Shown: positions 9,719 through 32,184 of the stretch, in pieces
Numbering within the stretch: position 1 is the first letter of the stretch
Layout: each line of letters starts with the position of its first letter
Source of the DNA: an uncultured Clostridia bacterium
GTDB lineage: Bacteria > Bacillota > Clostridia > Oscillospirales > Oscillospiraceae
DNA: 32,184 nt
Assembly (NCBI GenBank): GCA_945877515.1
Contig: CAMCSE010000019.1
Span: 1-32,184 of the forward strand
Reading direction: 5' to 3'
Position numbers and translations under genes: made by a program
The notes under the pieces: generated by a model
The model's input: only the letters and a program-made list of their open reading frames with translations
Told to the model about the DNA's origin: nothing
Databases searched by the model: none

Positions 9719-10146
9719 CGAGTGGATCAGACAGTCGCGGCGGCAAGGCGAAAGCCTGCCGATGAGGAAAGTCCGGGCTCCACAGGGCAAGGATAACGGG
9801 TAACGCCCGCCGAAGGCGACTTCAGGAAAAGTGCAACAGAGATATACCGCCGCGCAGTTCTTTCGGGAGTGATCCTGAAGGAATGAAGGCACAGTGAAAT
9901 GGACGAGCCGTACCGTTTGCGGTACGGCAAACGGCATGGTGCGTGCCGGCGCGGTAAGGGTGGAAAGGTGAGGTAAGAGCTCACCCGATGGCGCGGAAGT
10001 GTCCATCGCTGTAAACTCTATCCGGAGCAACACCGGTATGGGGACATTGGCTGGCCCGGCCGTCCCCGGGGTGGCTTGAGCGAACCGGTAACGGTGCGCC
10101 TAGATAGATGACTGTCAAGACAGAACCCGGCTTACAGATCGGCTCG
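9719..10146 (+). ncRNA. rnpB: RNase P RNA, class A
   Basis: Catalytic RNA of RNase P, which matures tRNA 5' ends. The conserved 5' block GAGGAAAGTCCGGGCTCC is at about 9764-9781, a GGTAAGAGCTCACC-type block near 9972, the GTAAACTCTATCCGGAGCAA block at 10012-10031, and the 3' block TAGATAGATGACTGTC followed by ACAGAACCCGGCTTA at about 10101-10134. The ends pair as P1 (9719-9728 with 10137-10146; 9 of 10 positions pair, counting one G-U). The overall form is class A rather than the class B of Bacillus. Length is about 428 nt. Confidence 0.97.
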
Positions 10147-10155
10147 TAATGATAT

Positions 10156-10443: not shown

Positions 10444-11259
10444 ATGAAAAAGTTTTTGGCAATGCTGATGGCACTGGTTATGGTGCTGAGTCTCGCCGCC
10501 TGCGGTAATCAGGCGAACACCCCTGACGATGCGAACAAGGACGATGCCCCTGATACCCAAGAGCTGACCTATGCGGTGGAAGCCGGCAGCGCCGGTGAGG
10601 AAGTGGCCAATGAGAAGGGCTGGAATATCAACTCCGTCGCTACTCAGGCTGATGCTTTGATGGAAGTCTCCGCCGGTACTTCTGATGCGGCGATCATCGA
10701 TCTGCTGATGGCCGGCGCCATGGTGGGCGAGGATACCAGCTATCCTGACCTGAAGGTCACCGATGAGAAACTGAACTCTGAGGAGTACGGTGTGGGCTGC
10801 CGCAAGGGCAGCGATCTGGCCTCCTTTATCAACAGTGTCTTTGGTGAAACCTATGCTGACGGTTCCCTGCAGGAACTGGCCAAGACCTACGGCGTGCAGG
10901 AGGCTCTGCTGGAACAGTCCGCTTCTGACTTCGTCGCCTCCGAAACCGACAGCGATGTAAAGTATATCCAGGAAAAGGGCAAGCTGGTGGTTGGTATCAC
11001 TGAGTTCGCGCCTATGGATTACAAAGATGCCAACGGCGAGTGGATCGGCTTTGACGCCGACATGGCCAGAATCGTGGCCGAGAAACTGGGCGTTGAGGTG
11101 GAGTTCGTCGTGATCGATTGGGACATGAAGGTCAACGAGCTGGACAGCAAGAACATCGACGTGGTGTGGAACGGTATGACCCTGACTGAGGGCGTGATGG
11201 CTGCCATGGAGTGCACTAACGCCTACTGCCAGAACGCGCAGGTAGTCGTGACCAAGTAA
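10444..11259 (+). CDS. Amino acid ABC transporter substrate-binding lipoprotein, lobes in circularly permuted order
   Basis: 271 residues with a lipoprotein signal peptide and lipobox L-A-A-C, Cys20 becoming the lipid anchor. In the usual polar amino acid family (PF00497) the mature chain runs: G-x-L-x-V-G-I-T strand, G-F-D-x-D, G-M-T-x-T, Q-V-V-V, then A-x-x-x-G-S-A-G-E, D-A-x-x-x-D, E-E-Y-G-I-x-x-R-K-G, helical C-terminus. Here the second half comes first: YAVEAGSAGEEV (43-54), GTSDAAIID (78-86), SEEYGVGCRKGSDL (112-125), DGSLQELAKTYG (139-150). A linker (about 151-178) then leads to GKLVVGITEFAPMDY (179-193), GFDADMARIVAEKLG (202-216), WNGMTLTEG (242-250) and AQVVVTK, where the protein stops. 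The frame is continuous, with a Shine-Dalgarno (AAAAGGAG) before the ATG. It should deliver a polar amino acid to the permease and ATPase that follow; the ligand is unknown. Confidence 0.9.
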   Translation: MKKFLAMLMALVMVLSLAACGNQANTPDDANKDDAPDTQELTYAVEAGSAGEEVANEKGWNINSVATQADALMEVSAGTSDAAIIDLLMAGAMVGEDTSYPDLKVTDEKLNSEEYGVGCRKGSDLASFINSVFGETYADGSLQELAKTYGVQEALLEQSASDFVASETDSDVKYIQEKGKLVVGITEFAPMDYKDANGEWIGFDADMARIVAEKLGVEVEFVVIDWDMKVNELDSKNIDVVWNGMTLTEGVMAAMECTNAYCQNAQVVVTK

Positions 11260-11367: not shown

Positions 11368-12024
11368 ATGTTCTGGACCGTCACCTTCTCGCTGCTTCAG
11401 GGAATGGGCGAGCTTTTAAAGATCTTTTTCCTGACGCTGCTGTTCTCTCTTCCACTGGGACTTATCATCGCCTTTGCCCTGCGCAGCCGGTGTAAGCCTG
11501 TCAGCTGGCTTTTCAACATCATCGTGTGGATCATCCGTGGTACGCCGTTGATGCTTCAGCTGATCATCATCTTCTACGGCCCCGGCAAATGGTTCGATAA
11601 CAATATCTGGGGTTATTTTTCTGACGGTCGTATGGCGGCCTGCGTCATCGCCTTTGTCATCAACTACGCATGCTATTTTGCCGTCATCTATAAGGGCGGC
11701 ATTGAGAGCGTTCCGGTAGGCCAGCGGGAGGCTGGTCAGGTTCTGGGCATGACAAAGAGCCAGATCTTTTTCAAGGTGACACTGCTGCAGATGGTCAAGC
11801 GTATCGTCCCCCCCATGTCCAACGAGATCATCACATTGGTGAAGGATACCTCTCTGGCCCGGATCATCGCCATTATGGAGCTGACCAAGATGGGTGAGAG
11901 TTTCATCAAATCCAAGGGCATCACATGGCCCCTGTTCTACACCGGCGTGTTCTATCTGGCGCTGGTGGGGATCCTGACGCTGCTGTTCAACTACATCGAG
12001 CGCAAGCTCAGCTACTTTAAGTAA
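11368..12024 (+). CDS. Amino acid ABC transporter permease (HisM/GlnP type)
   Basis: 218 residues with about five membrane helices. Diagnostic features are RGTPLMLQL (57-65) after the second or third helix and the EAA loop REAGQVLGMTKSQIFFKVTLL split across 120-140, the cytoplasmic helix that docks to the ATPase. The C-terminal part NEIITLVKDTSLARII is typical of the polar amino acid family. The Shine-Dalgarno AAAGGAG precedes the ATG. It probably acts as a homodimer, since no second permease gene is nearby. The ATPase gene follows after 12 bp. Confidence 0.93.
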   Translation: MFWTVTFSLLQGMGELLKIFFLTLLFSLPLGLIIAFALRSRCKPVSWLFNIIVWIIRGTPLMLQLIIIFYGPGKWFDNNIWGYFSDGRMAACVIAFVINYACYFAVIYKGGIESVPVGQREAGQVLGMTKSQIFFKVTLLQMVKRIVPPMSNEIITLVKDTSLARIIAIMELTKMGESFIKSKGITWPLFYTGVFYLALVGILTLLFNYIERKLSYFK

Positions 12025-25556: not shown

Positions 25557-25816
25557 AATATTGAACAGCGATGACGGGAAGCAGTAGGCGGTCAGCGGAT
25601 GCCAAGAGAGGGAGCGGTCGGTGTAAGCTCCTGTGATGCCCCGCCCAAGTCGTCCCTGAGCTTTCGGCTGAACAACAGTAAGCCGTAACGGTTGCCCTCC
25701 GTTAGCGGGGCGCGGCGTGACAGCGCCGCATGAGTGCGGGAATTATCCCGAATACAGGTGGTACCACGGACAATTGTTCGCCCTGTTTTGCTGATGGCAA
25801 AACGGAGCGATTTTTT
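25557..25816 (+). promoter_or_regulatory. T-box riboswitch, valine specifier GUC
   Basis: The T-box sequence AGGTGGTACCACGG is at 25756-25769; its UGGU can pair with an ACCA tRNA end, fitting the discriminator A of tRNA-Val. In Stem I the helix GGCGG/CCGCC (3' arm 25641-25645) is followed by the specifier loop, with AGTA on the 5' side and GTC at 25649-25651 on the 3' side, a valine codon. AGAGAG and GGTGTAAG motifs of the Stem I apex are present. The terminator arms are about 25778-25791 and 25797-25810, followed by six T residues. Uncharged tRNA-Val should favour the antiterminator and read-through into valS. Confidence 0.93.
25778..25816 (+). terminator. Regulated terminator of the valS T-box
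   Basis: Stem of about 14 bp with one C-A mismatch and one G-U pair, a short loop, then TTTTTT. It is the alternative to the antiterminator formed by the T-box sequence just upstream. Confidence 0.88.
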
Positions 25817-25854: not shown

Positions 25855-28488
25855 ATGCATAAGGAATTGCCGAAAGTGTATGATCCGCGGGAGGTGGAGC
25901 CCAGCATCTATCAGATGTGGATGGACAACGACTGCTTCCACGCCGATCCAAATCCTGACAAAAAGCCGTTTTCCATTGTTATGCCGCCCCCCAATGTTAC
26001 TGGACAGCTCCATATGGGCCACGCCATGGACTGCACGCTGCAAGATATCCTGATCCGGTACAAACGGATGCAGGGCTATGAGGCACTGTGGCTGCCCGGC
26101 AGCGACCACGCCGGCATTGCCACTCAGATCAAGGTGGAGGAAGAGCTGCGCAACACAGAGGGCCTGACCCGCCATGATCTGGGCCGCGAGAAGTTCCTGG
26201 AGCGTGTCTGGGCGTGGAAGGAAAAATACGGAAGCCGTATCGTGGAGCAGCAGAAGAAGATGGGCGCTTCCTGCGACTGGAGCCGCGATCGTTTCACCAT
26301 GGACGAGGGCTGCTCCCGCGCCGTCCGTGAGACCTTCTGCGAACTCTATGAGAAGGGCCTGATCTACAAGGGCAGCCGCATCATCAACTGGTGTCCCCAT
26401 TGCCTGACCGCCCTGTCCGACGCCGAGGTGGAGTACACCGAAAAGCCCGGCCATCTGTGGTATGTCCGCTATCCCCTCAGCGACGGCAGCGGCGATATCG
26501 TCATCGCCACCACCCGTCCCGAAACCATGCTGGGCGATACCGGCGTGGCCGTCAACCCGGAGGATGAGAAGTTCAAGCACCTCATTGGCAAGAAGTGCGT
26601 TCTGCCGCTGATGAATCGTGAGATCCCCATCGTGGGCGACGAATACTGCGAGATCGGATTCGGTACCGGCGCGGTGAAGATGACGCCTGCCCATGACCCC
26701 AACGACTTCGAGGTGGGCCTGCGCCACAACCTGGAGGTTATCCGCTGCATTGCCGATGACGGCACCATCAATGAAAACGGCGGCAAGTATCAGGGAATGG
26801 ATCGCTACGAGTGCCGCAAGGCCATTGTGGAGGATCTGGACGCCGCCGGCTATCTGGTCAAGACCGAGCCCTACAGCCACAACGTGGGCACCTGCTACCG
26901 CTGCCATAACGACGTGGAGCCTCTGATCTCCGCCCAGTGGTTCGTGAAAATGGCGCCTCTTGCCAAAGAAGCCATCCGCGTGGTGGAGGACGGCACCGTC
27001 AAGTTTGTGCCGGAGCGTTTCACCAAGACCTATATCAACTGGATGGAGAACGTTCATGACTGGTGTATTTCCCGCCAGCTGTGGTGGGGCCATCAAATCC
27101 CCGCGTGGTACTGTGACGAGTGCGGCCATATCAATGTCAGCCGTGAAGATCCCACCAAGTGCGAAAAGTGCGGCTGTACCCACCTGACCCGTGAGGAGGA
27201 CGTGCTGGATACCTGGTTCAGCTCCGCCCTGTGGCCTTTCTCCACACTGGGCTGGCCGGATCTGGACGCCGCCGACCTGAACTACTGGTATCCCACCTCT
27301 GTGCTGGTCACCGGCTACGATATTATTTTCTTCTGGGTGGCCCGTATGATCTTCTCCGGCATGGAGCAGATGAAGAAGGAGCCCTTCAAAACGGTGCTCA
27401 TCCACGGCCTTGTGCGGGATGATAAGGGCCGCAAAATGTCCAAGTCTCTGGGCAACGGCATCGATCCGCTGGAGATGGCGGAGAAGTACGGTGCCGACGC
27501 GCTGCGCTTTAACCTGATCACCGGCAACAGTCCCGGCAATGATATGCGTTTCTTCGTGGAAAAATGTGAGGCCATGCGTAACTTTGCCAACAAGATCTGG
27601 AATGCCAGCCGCTTTGTCATGATGAATCTTACCATTGACAAAGTGCAGCTGCCGGAAAAGCTGGAGCTGGAAGACAAATGGGTTCTCAGCAAGCTGAACA
27701 CGCTGATCCGTGAAGTGACAGAGAACATGGATGCCTTTGAGCTGGGTGTGGCGTCCGCCAAGATCTATGATTTCATCTGGGACACCTATTGCGACTGGTA
27801 TATCGAGCTGACCAAGACCCGCCTCAACGGCGAAGACGCCGGGGCGAAGCTGGCAGCCGAAAACGTGCTGTGCTATGTGCTGCTGCGTATTCTGGAACTG
27901 CTGCACCCCTTCATGCCCTTCATCACCGAGGAGATCTGGCAGGCGCTGCCCCACGAGGGTGACTTCCTGATCCGCGCGGCATGGCCGACCTATCAGGAAG
28001 CCCTGCACTTCCCGCAGGCGGAGTCCGATATGGAGAATGTGAAGGATGCCATCACCGCCGTCCGCGCCCGCCGTTCCGAGATGAACGTGCCGCCTTCCAA
28101 GAAGGCGCAGTTGATTTTGGTGACCCGCCGTCCTGAGACCTATGAGGTGGGTAAACACTTCATTACCCGTATGGCCTATGCCAGTGAGGTGACGGTCACA
28201 GACAAAGTGCCGTCTGACCTGAAGGGCATGGTCACTGTGGTGACTCACGATGCCAATATCTATCTGCCGCTGGCGGAGTTGGTCGATATTGACGCAGAGC
28301 TGGAACGTATCGCCAAGGAGAAAGCTAAGGCCGAGGACAACCTCAAGCGCATCGAAGCCAAGTTGGCCAATGAATCCTTCACCTCCCGCGCACCGGAAAA
28401 CGTGGTTAACGCCGAGCGTGAAAAGGCTGATAAGGCCCGTGCCTTGATTGCCAAGCTGGAGGAATCCGCTGCCGCTATGAAGTTATAA
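25855..28488 (+). CDS. valS: Valyl-tRNA synthetase
   Basis: 877 residues, class I synthetase that charges tRNA-Val. HMGH (the HIGH motif) at 53-56 after PPPNVTGQL, the editing domain ([20 protein letters not shown]), KMSKS at 527-531, the anticodon-binding helical domain, and a C-terminal coiled coil ([20 protein letters not shown]) that helps bind the tRNA. A zinc-binding Cys cluster [12 protein letters not shown] ... CEKCGC is near residue 420. GGAAAGGAG precedes the ATG. Expression is set by the T-box upstream. Confidence 0.97.
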
Positions 28489-29591: not shown

Positions 29592-30292
29592 GCGAGATGT
29601 TTGCGCTGCTGGAACGGGCGCAGGGGGGAGACGACGAGGCGTGCCAGCAGGTACTGACGGAGAACAGTGGACTGATCTGGTCCATTGTCAAGCGGTATTA
29701 CGGCTGCGGTGTAGAAACGGACGACCTCTATCAGCTGGGATGTATCGGCTTTATCAAGGCAGTAAAAGGTTTCGATCTTAATTATGGTACCCAGTTTTCT
29801 ACCTACGCCGTGCCTAAAATCTCCGGTGAGATCCGACGTTTTCTTCGAGATGATGGCGCCATCAAAGTAGGCCGCACCATCCGGGAAAAGGGACAGACCC
29901 TCTGGTCAGCAAGGGAAAAACTGCGGCATCAATTGGGGCGGGAGGCCCACCTGTCCGAGCTGTCAGAGGCCACCGGAATGACAGTAGAGGAAATCGCCAA
30001 TATTGACCTTGCCACTGTGGCTCCGGAATCGTTGCAGCAGGAAACTGCAGAGGGCCTGACACTGGAATCGACATTAGGTACGGATGCAGAGGAAGAGCGC
30101 CTTGTGGAGAGCATAGCCTTGCGGGAGGCCATTGATACGCTCCCGGAAAAAGAAAAGATGACCATTCTCCTGCGCTTTTTCAAGGGGCTGACTCAGGAGC
30201 AGACCGCTCGGATCGTGGGAGTATCGCAGGTTCAGATTTCCCGTTTGGAGCACAGGGGCTTGGAAAAGCTGCGCAAGCTGCTGGCGGATTGA
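29588..30292 (+). CDS. sigF: RNA polymerase sigma factor SigF (forespore)
   Basis: 234 residues of the sigma-70 family, sporulation group. Region 2 holds LIWSIVKRYYGCGVETDDLYQLG and the conserved GFIKAVKGFDLNYGTQFSTYAVP. Region 3 includes LRDDGAIKVGRTIREKG. Region 4 carries the helix-turn-helix LTQEQTARIVGVSQVQISRL. The position after spoIIAA and spoIIAB identifies it as sigma-F rather than sigma-G. Its last 113 bp are also read, on the other strand, by the DUF4130 gene, and no terminator follows. Confidence 0.96.
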   Translation: MSEMFALLERAQGGDDEACQQVLTENSGLIWSIVKRYYGCGVETDDLYQLGCIGFIKAVKGFDLNYGTQFSTYAVPKISGEIRRFLRDDGAIKVGRTIREKGQTLWSAREKLRHQLGREAHLSELSEATGMTVEEIANIDLATVAPESLQQETAEGLTLESTLGTDAEEERLVESIALREAIDTLPEKEKMTILLRFFKGLTQEQTARIVGVSQVQISRLEHRGLEKLRKLLAD

Positions 30293-31067
30293 CGCCTTTT
30301 TGTTGTGCTTCATAGTCGTCCGGCAAAAACTCTGTCATAGTGCCGCGATAGCGTTTGGGCATAAACGTGTTCTGACACCGGGGGTTATACCGCTCTTGGA
30401 TCGCAATGGTTTCATAGAATCGTTTCCATAATCTGCGAAACTGAACCTCTTCTTCACCGGGCAGCGACAACTGCAGACTGTCCACTATAAGAAGACGGGA
30501 GTGACTGTTGGCATAAACCAGCAGCTCTTTGTTGGTCCGGTCATATATAAAAAACGCCTCATTGGCATACCGGTCGCAAAAGTGCTTTCGCAGCAGGGGC
30601 AAAACCCGGTTTTTTGGTTCGATCTCCGCCCCCAGAACACCCTTGTAATCTGAAAAGCGGACAAAGCCACGCAATTTTTCCAACTCGCCGCTCAGGTGCC
30701 GAAGGGCCTTGGCAACGGGATAGTACACCGGATCAGAAATATTGTGCAAAAAACCGGCGCCTTCCTCATATAACTTTCGAACCACTGCGTATAATCGGGA
30801 TTCCTTTTCCGGCAGACAGGTGAGAAATCCGCGCCGCACTACATCCGCTGCGCCTTTGGAACGCCGCAGAATACTGTCGTATACACGGCGGGCATGCTCT
30901 CGCTCTGTCACCACATAGCGCACCTCATACAGCGACCAACATTCCTCATTGCCGGAAAAAGCAATGGGGAATTCTTTATATACATAACTCTCAAACACGC
31001 AGCAGAGAAAACCTTCAAACGTTCCGTCATATTGAAAAACCACATCTCTCCATGCCACACTGTTCAC
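30180..31067 (-). CDS. TIGR03915-type (DUF4130) putative DNA metabolism/repair protein
   Basis: 295 residues. The body matches the DUF4130 family usually paired with a radical SAM protein: N-terminal YDGTFEGFLCCVFESY, HNISDPVYYPVAKALRHLSG in the middle, RFSDYKGVLGAEIEPKNRVL, and the end motif KRYRGTMTEFLPDDY. A uracil-DNA glycosylase domain, fused in some relatives, is absent. The start is GTG at 31067, overlapping the radical SAM stop as GTGA, so the pair is coupled. The last 37 residues, after the normal end of the family, are Pro/Ser/Ala-rich and antisense to sigF, which suggests loss of the ancestral stop codon. The activity is unknown. Confidence 0.85.
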   Translation of the reverse strand: MNSVAWRDVVFQYDGTFEGFLCCVFESYVYKEFPIAFSGNEECWSLYEVRYVVTEREHARRVYDSILRRSKGAADVVRRGFLTCLPEKESRLYAVVRKLYEEGAGFLHNISDPVYYPVAKALRHLSGELEKLRGFVRFSDYKGVLGAEIEPKNRVLPLLRKHFCDRYANEAFFIYDRTNKELLVYANSHSRLLIVDSLQLSLPGEEEVQFRRLWKRFYETIAIQERYNPRCQNTFMPKRYRGTMTEFLPDDYEAQQKGVNPPAACAAFPSPCAPNGKSEPAILPRSERSAPESAP

Positions 31068-32184
31068 CCCGCTGCGTCAAATAAAGATAGCTGCTGCATC
31101 TCACCTTCTGGCAACGACCCTCGTTCCGCGGCCTCCAGCTGCTGCACGATAGTGGAAGGGGAGAACCGAAGCCCGGGAGCGGCGTGACCGTCACAGAGAA
31201 CGAAATACTGTGCCCGCTTAACGACCACCCCCAGTTTTTTCAGCTCCTCAAACCGCAGATGTGTGGTACGCCGGGCTGCGAGGATACGCTTGGCACTGGT
31301 AGGGCCGATACCCGGAACCCGCAGGAGCGTTTCATATTCTGCTCGCATGATCTCCACTGGGAATTGCTCCAAATGGGCAACCGCCCAACTGCATTTGGGA
31401 TCCAGCCGGGGATTGAAGTCCGGGTGAGCCTCATCCAACAACTCGGAGGCACGAAAACCATAAAACCGCAGCAGCCAGTCCGCCTGATAGAGCCGATGCT
31501 CCCGCAGCAGCGGCGGCTTGGTATCCAGAGAGGGCAGGAGATTGTTTTCTACTACCGGCACATAGGCAGAATAAAACACTCGTTTGAGCCGGTACTCCTG
31601 ATAAAGAGCCTCCGTCAGATGCAGAATGTGCCGGTCGGTGTCCTGTGTCGCTCCCACGATCAGCTGGGTGCTCTGTCCCGCCGGAGCAAAGGACGGGGCG
31701 TGCTTATATTTGACCAATTCCTGACGGTTTTCCAATACCCTGTCGCGGATCAGTCCCATAGGCCGCAGGATAGCTTCCCGCGTTTTGTCGGGAGCCAACA
31801 GCTGTAATCCCTGATGGGAGGGCAGCTCGATGTTGACACTCATGCGGTCAGCCAAAAGGCCCAACTGCTGCACCAGTTCCGGAGATGTGCCGGGGATGGC
31901 TTTTGCATGGATGTACCCATTAAAGCCGTATTCCTGCCGCAGGATCTGCAGGGCACGGATCATTTGCTCGGTAGTGTAGTCGGCATTGCGCAGCACACCG
32001 GAGGAAAGAAAAAGCCCCTCAATATAATTCCGCCGATAAAATCCTATGGTCAGTTCCGCCAGCTCACGGGGCGTAAAAGCAGCACGACGGGTATCGTTAG
32101 AGCGCCGGTTGACGCAATATTTGCAGTCGTAAACGCAGCTGTTGGTCATCAATACCTTCAACAGCGTGATGCAGCGTCCGTCGG
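31064..32184 (-). CDS. TIGR03916-type radical SAM protein, putative DNA modification/repair; 5' end beyond the window
   Basis: The frame is open to the window edge and reads D-G-R-C-I-T-L-L-K before LMTNSC, as inside known family members, so the true start lies past 32184. The radical SAM Cys-x3-Cys-x2-Cys (C-V-Y-D-C-K-Y-C) has codons starting at 32137, 32125 and 32116. Further in are LSSGVLRNADYTTEQM, YIHAKAIPGTSPELVQQLG and FAPAGQSTQLIVGAT. Near the C-terminus LLRVPGIGPTSAKRILAARR is a helix-hairpin-helix, a non-specific DNA-binding motif that supports a nucleic acid substrate. The family is annotated as putative DNA repair because of its glycosylase-linked neighbours; no reaction is established that I know of. 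Confidence 0.9.
   Translation of the reverse strand, partial: DGRCITLLKVLMTNSCVYDCKYCVNRRSNDTRRAAFTPRELAELTIGFYRRNYIEGLFLSSGVLRNADYTTEQMIRALQILRQEYGFNGYIHAKAIPGTSPELVQQLGLLADRMSVNIELPSHQGLQLLAPDKTREAILRPMGLIRDRVLENRQELVKYKHAPSFAPAGQSTQLIVGATQDTDRHILHLTEALYQEYRLKRVFYSAYVPVVENNLLPSLDTKPPLLREHRLYQADWLLRFYGFRASELLDEAHPDFNPRLDPKCSWAVAHLEQFPVEIMRAEYETLLRVPGIGPTSAKRILAARRTTHLRFEELKKLGVVVKRAQYFVLCDGHAAPGLRFSPSTIVQQLEAAERGSLPEGEMQQLSLFDAAG

Follow-up and report, generated by a model that had tools for sequence, protein, structure and literature searches.

Natural circular permutations are usually described as rare. In the canonical fold of the family-3 substrate-binding proteins, lobe 1 holds both termini and is joined to lobe 2 by two crossing strands. 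Classic natural permutants are the DNA methyltransferases and the swaposins, for which permutation by duplication is the model (PMC3320104). Among binding proteins, TpMglB-2 (Tp0684) of Treponema, a type I glucose-binding lipoprotein placed in "Type Ic / Cluster Bc", has been described as naturally permuted; it is reported to bind glucose and to change shape and to have relatives in gut Gram-positive bacteria, and its authors raised tethering as a possible reason for the permutation (PMC4990184).

Here we describe P0001, the product of an open reading frame in a 32,184-nucleotide stretch of DNA (the window) from an uncultured Clostridia bacterium. Like TpMglB-2, it is an ABC binding protein on a tether whose chain has been circularly permuted in nature. 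TpMglB-2 has the type I sugar fold, a cut in the N-lobe and a fourth crossover, and is reported as a single family (PMC4990184), whereas the P0001 group belongs to the type II amino-acid family, is cut in lobe 2 or the hinge and appears to have many origins. By sequence, P0001 does not show the type I fold of the type Ic proteins: PF00497 was the sole Pfam family above cut-off, and the recognisable ones among its PDB matches are family-3 type II proteins. Judged from its sequence and surroundings, P0001 is very probably a functional lipoprotein that binds substrate for its own amino-acid-type ABC importer and is encoded by a circularly permuted gene in which the ends of lobe 1 are linked and hinge strand 1 is opened. 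The parts of the locus are as follows, the lobe limits (residues 40–113 and 114–158) being placed from the known fold.

10444–11259, + strand: intact open reading frame for the circularly permuted family-3 substrate-binding lipoprotein (P0001, 271 aa)
10444–10503, + strand: signal peptide of the lipoprotein type, with C20 as the lipobox cysteine, from the sequence
10504–10560, + strand: N-terminal tether, residues 21–39, differing among relatives (alignments A1 and A2)
10561–10782, + strand: lobe 2, residues 40–113, whose canonical place is after hinge strand 1
10783–10917, + strand: hinge strand 2 and the C-terminal helices of lobe 1, residues 114–158, up to the canonical stop point
10918–10947, + strand: junction linker, residues 159–168, between the former C- and N-termini
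10948–11235, + strand: N-terminal part of lobe 1, residues 169–264
11236–11259, + strand: hinge strand 1 (AQVVVTK) and stop, the new C-terminus
11368–12024, + strand: single amino-acid ABC permease gene, PF00528
12037–12807, + strand: amino-acid ABC ATPase gene, PF00005

A gene for class A RNase P RNA (9719–10150) lies 5′ of this operon.

The sequence-only reading of this locus had proposed that the halves of P0001 are swapped, with the lipoprotein signal followed by lobe 2 and the C-terminal helices and then by lobe 1, and searches of PDB chains with phmmer bear this out. Chain 6svf aligns in two stretches, its residues 5–102 with P0001 174–270 and its residues 117–220 with P0001 39–143 (40.2 bits). 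The 14 residues that follow canonical hinge strand 1 in 6svf numbering have no clear equivalent in P0001, and inspection by eye of the three forward frames 3′ of its stop codon revealed no lobe-2 remnant or frameshift. Two matching segments had also been predicted for PF00497, and one was reported: residues 182–271 align with positions 2–91 of the model, which has 132 positions in the Pfam release used (88.5 bits against a cut-off of 26.4, E 4e-25), a match to the lobe-1 half only, with the lobe-2 stretch unreported.

Alignment with a single copy of the canonical sister L118 gave separate matches for P0001 residues 165–266 (72%) and 34–158 (62%). When L118 was doubled, the continuous match anticipated by the earlier reading appeared as one HSP through the join at position 240, pairing P0001 34–266 with doubled L118 117–343 at 64% identity over 233 residues (E 8e-103, the best of five references), beside both half matches. 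Each of the five canonical references, used singly, gave two strong HSPs, one per half, to which one reference added a third at chance level; once doubled, all five gave a long HSP through the join plus two half matches. Of the 28 or so residues suggested as a linker, only about 10 form a linker proper; the others include conserved residues of the helix and the leader. The C-terminus of the canonical sister aligns with Q158 of P0001, and its N-terminal leader restarts near D169.

P0001 does not have the family-3 segment order of lobe 1, lobe 2 and lobe 1 with both termini in lobe 1. We conclude that, as far as alignments can tell, it is a permuted member of family 3 that descends from this family and resembles it, and at that level we regard the circular permutation as confirmed. 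The sequence equally supports the proposed cut at hinge strand 1, which leaves AQVVVTK at the new C-terminus, and the proposed course of the anchored N-terminus into lobe 2; the 3′ genes for a permease (PF00528) and an ATPase (PF00005) form the matching operon.

The nearest canonical family-3 lipoproteins are the WNGMT-type sisters L117–L119 and L123, which have both lobes, the lipobox and the 3′ permease in common with P0001. After re-ordering, P0001 is 62% identical to L117 and 63% to L118, and the permeases of the window and L118 are 61% identical. In the canonical lipoproteins the termini lie in lobe 1, whereas in P0001 the segments are swapped, the termini lie at the hinge and lobe 2, and the anchor leads into lobe 2. 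PDB entries 6gpc, 6y16 and 7a99, also among the phmmer matches of P0001, are presumably engineered single lobes of a family-3 protein; they resemble P0001 in having lobe 1 as one continuous unit, and differ from it in being laboratory-made and in comprising one lobe only.

The window comes from an 83-contig assembly that is 80.6% complete. The swapped order could in principle be an artefact, produced by faulty assembly or binning or by pieces of two genes fused by chance within a single metagenome bin. A scan of genome contigs returned at least 567 relatives among 597 candidate stretches, from which the best 80 loci were kept. The permuted order was present in all 80, at 62–97% identity, and these loci come from many assemblies; some of the records, Oscillibacter sp. 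PC13 (L044) for example, do not bear the title of a metagenome bin. Within the window genus the permuted gene occurs in 5 of 32 genomes, the window's own counted, one of the five being a 2-contig, 100%-complete genome (G001). A permease of the same kind lies directly 3′ in 80 of the 80 loci and an ATPase in 76, the remaining four ending within 651 bases of the gene. The P0001 gene is under purifying selection: pN/pS is 0.08 in the comparison with the closest relative, whose protein is 97% identical, and 0.26–0.27 in comparisons with three more distant relatives. The artefact reading is refuted by the independent assemblies, and we give it practically no weight.

The lipobox-like motif, L-A-A-C at residues 17–20 of P0001, is present in 113 of 116 distinct permuted open reading frames, those without it by the pattern used being L147, L148 and L154. 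In L154 (102–1109, minus strand), a permutant of the cut-B class described below, a transmembrane-like N-terminal segment replaces the lipobox; the same genome (G045) holds a second cut-B permutant, L126. L155 (2486–3592, minus strand) carries a canonical family-3 domain after N-terminal repeated YAPDGR units, with no plain tether.

To find how widely the order is distributed, a profile (A1) was built from P0001 together with 79 scan loci, all but L095, and used to search 393 class genomes with a threshold of E ≤ 1e-30. Canonical proteins are expected not to cross the former terminus junction, and a gene was called permuted when its match crossed this junction from profile position 125 or lower, a rule that is blind to cuts at about positions 126–185, a stretch covering the final helices, the linker and the first residues of lobe 1. 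Twenty-three genes in 20 genomes cross, the window's included, and a second profile, A3, adds G192 and G216, giving permuted genes in at least 22 of the 393 class genomes. At the level of the order they occur in at least 15 of 295 genomes, and in a draw from the phylum in 3 of 398, the window's own included. Nearly all junction-crossing genes of the surveys were also read as translations; two candidates, in G170 and G385 (L156 and L157), were rejected on finding their translations canonical, and a match in G115 (118–264, internal stops) was left out of the permuted count.

In plasmids, tblastn matched 336 records, none with a single place covering more than 80% of the query, a result that leaves room for diverged or otherwise-cut permutants. 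The best plasmid match, H1 (L112), is canonical. Among the ten matches listed, three seemed to cross the junction: H2 and H8 were rejected, since the match starts within about 50 bases of an annotated gene start and reads as a canonical leader; H7 shows an apparent crossing in a record that carries no annotation. Among solved structures, the best stretches of the best 60 of 81 PDB sequences matched by A1 show no permuted order, none reaching back beyond profile position 152. In agreement with the earlier reading, which knew of no described natural permutation in family 3, none was found among the matches listed from the open-licence literature, judged by titles and the starts of abstracts; term searches of PMC12667903, PMC11757225 and PMC2912341 likewise brought up none.

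Three classes of cut site were assigned by eye from the alignments, with strands and helices named after the canonical fold; the unclassed rows L026 and L031 were dropped. Cut A falls on hinge strand 1 or where lobe 2 begins; this class comprises the window clade, L114, L115, L163 and L164, L121, and L149, L150 and L153. Cut B lies in lobe 2, where the conserved I-D motif is followed by a helix and then by the loop that is cut, and is found in L116, L122, L126–L128, L146–L148, L151, L152, L154, L165, L176, L178, L190–L196, L214 and L246. Cut C, past the first strand of lobe 2, is found in L142–L145 and L189. Of 222 open reading frames scored, all 136 permuted ones have a crossing match that starts at profile positions 1–103 and reaches 264–267, so that in this set the N-terminal part of lobe 1 is never cut (not counted here are two later additions, L214, at a contig end, and L246). 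Every cut found lies in lobe 2 or in the hinge leading into it, so that the lipid anchor shifts from lobe 1 to lobe 2.

Trees were built on sequences returned to canonical order by script. A quick tree took 14 of the 79 scan loci L033–L111 by name and omitted L032 and seven other duplicates or near-copies, a near-copy filter keeping 118 of 129 rows; canonical rows that had no junction position were given a fallback start. In this tree there are 10 changes between the canonical and permuted states, at least seven of them forced by starred branches. A more careful tree, to which closer canonical relatives were added, used 93 of 136 rows (five long or odd rows dropped, 38 thinned by hand) and has 16 changes, at least 14 of them forced by supported branches, with 15–16 over bootstraps and a long-branch join at the L045 group as a caveat. 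By cut class, A needs five changes, B ten and C one. A single clade was rejected by AU tests for all permuted rows (p 5e-8), for cut A (p 7e-5) and for cut B (p 3e-53), p-values that are weakened by the groups having been named after the first tree was viewed. The window binding-protein clade has support of 100/100 and joins canonical L117–L119, L123 and L129 at 95/83.

A tree of the neighbouring permeases, which is independent of the re-ordering, gives 12 changes in 82 rows, at least seven of them forced; a permease lies directly 3′ in 39 of the 43 permuted tree rows, none being found for the other four. Some pairs of opposite state are close: permuted L246 and canonical L023 stand at 68% in the binding protein and 77% in the permease, and permuted L147 and L148 belong to the same genus as canonical L218 and L220, with L147 at 66% to L218, and 78–81% over the longest stretch. 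Neither L147 nor L148 has a neighbour that matched when the window's permease and ATPase were used as queries. In genus g69 the permuted and canonical close relatives (L252–L256) lie in unlike gene neighbourhoods, which left no flanks to compare for DNA-level breakpoints.

These trees support the view that the window permutation is one of many independent permutations in family 3. The idea that one or a few ancient permutations were spread by gene transfer, with the canonical relatives as reversions, draws on several features of the same data. Change counts are blind to gain versus loss; rooted on a distant canonical group, the careful tree implies either 12–15 gains and 1–4 reversions or 17 gains and none, and thus 1–4 of the 16 changes may be reversions. 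One change is due to a long canonical row, L236_C, that lies inside a permuted group (15 changes on its removal), the permease tree forces only seven, and in it one canonical row falls among 11 window-type rows. Set against this are the rejection of all three single clades, the existence of three cut sites, and the consideration that a reversion is itself a second permutation. We judge a few ancient origins to be very unlikely and favour recurrent permutation. Of the picture of a lone permutant, then, the permutation in P0001 stands, whereas its isolation does not: it belongs to a conserved clade, appears to be one of many permutations, and has a precedent elsewhere in TpMglB-2.

The two-lobe fold is, we infer from the sequences, retained in the permuted proteins. 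The short linker would connect the old termini of lobe 1, with hinge strand 1 as the place of the new ones, and ordinary ligand capture and delivery may be expected, since the anchor, the lobe motifs and the operon are those of an ABC importer binding lipoprotein. In cut A each lobe would be continuous in sequence, with one covalent strand over the hinge, whereas in cuts B and C lobe 2 would be the split domain, with lobe 1 inserted. This single covalent crossover, together with the short linker, could instead allow the halves to form a domain-swapped dimer or two processed chains rather than one cleft. Both halves are conserved together, however, and the old termini are close to each other in the canonical fold; we think such an arrangement improbable and retain the single two-lobed chain. 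The lipid anchor would then pull on lobe 2. The single permease gene presumably supplies two identical subunits facing the two lobes, and with identical subunits the anchor may be free to switch lobe.

The gene itself probably arose when a tandem duplicate lost its first lobe-1 part and its last lobe-2 part. L208 (G656), in the window's family, has a tandem canonical SBP–SBP–permease–ATPase operon, the kind of arrangement from which such a permutation might start. P0001 shares natural circular permutation within a family with the DNA methyltransferases and swaposins, which differ in their unrelated folds and documented duplicated intermediates (PMC3320104); no fused lobe 1–lobe 2–lobe 1–lobe 2 intermediate was seen among the loci fetched here.

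Why the cuts recur in lobe 2 and the hinge admits two main answers. The permutations may be neutral, eased by tandem copies and flexible linkers, with the lobe 2 loops tolerating new ends, and we put this at a little short of an even chance: the native ends already serve the lipoprotein as flexible tethers, and SBP genes in tandem exist, as in L208. The difficulty for neutrality is that the cuts found fall in three lobe-2 or hinge loops and none in lobe 1. The surveys sample genomes with profiles built from permuted proteins and would be expected to detect cuts in most of lobe 1. Twelve gains would all fall in lobe 2 by chance with a probability of about 2e-5, a rough figure that takes sites as uniform and lobe 2 as an estimated 40% or so of the chain, and that ignores detection bias. 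Either selection or an intolerant lobe 1 would account for this restriction, and if the lobe 1 loops are intolerant neutrality still fits. More tentatively, we suggest that the position of the termini may be an evolvable trait in this clade, in which some dozen or more permutations, converging on three lobe-2 or hinge loops, may have been selected for a lobe-2 anchor and a continuous lobe 1, altering tethering, hinge mechanics or docking.

In canonical family-3 members the arginine of the T-x-x-R motif binds the amino-acid carboxylate. The equivalent position in P0001 is Val251, and in the window-type rows it is Val in 76 of 89, Thr in 11, Met in one and Arg in one, duplicates counted. Loss of the arginine was rejected as an effect of permutation, as the canonical sisters have Val here too; any change of ligand must therefore predate the permutation. 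A disulfide staple of C119, C257 and C262 replacing the cut hinge strand was likewise rejected, these cysteines being present in canonical L117 and L118.

That binding proteins can be permuted was already known; what appears to be new is that the type II amino-acid family has such proteins and that they arose repeatedly. In this nutrient-binding protein of gut bacteria the tether enters the opposite lobe, and the family offers many independent events of this kind, some of them fairly recent, at three recurring cut sites. With close canonical sisters beside related permeases, and one permuted and canonical case within a single genus, the group offers a natural test case for the effect of tether position and hinge connectivity on an ABC importer. 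The permuted proteins may also serve as natural scaffolds for sensor design, a field with engineered permutants. Profiles in canonical order match them in pieces, with annotation as truncated or ordinary proteins as a possible consequence.

Elsewhere in the window, the minus strand encodes a DUF4130 protein and an adjoining open reading frame of 365 aa (30180–31067 and 31064–32161), the latter with no Pfam match at 1e-8. A T-box leader at 25562–25788 precedes a class I aminoacyl-tRNA synthetase gene (25855–28488) whose product has a valyl-type tRNA-binding arm.
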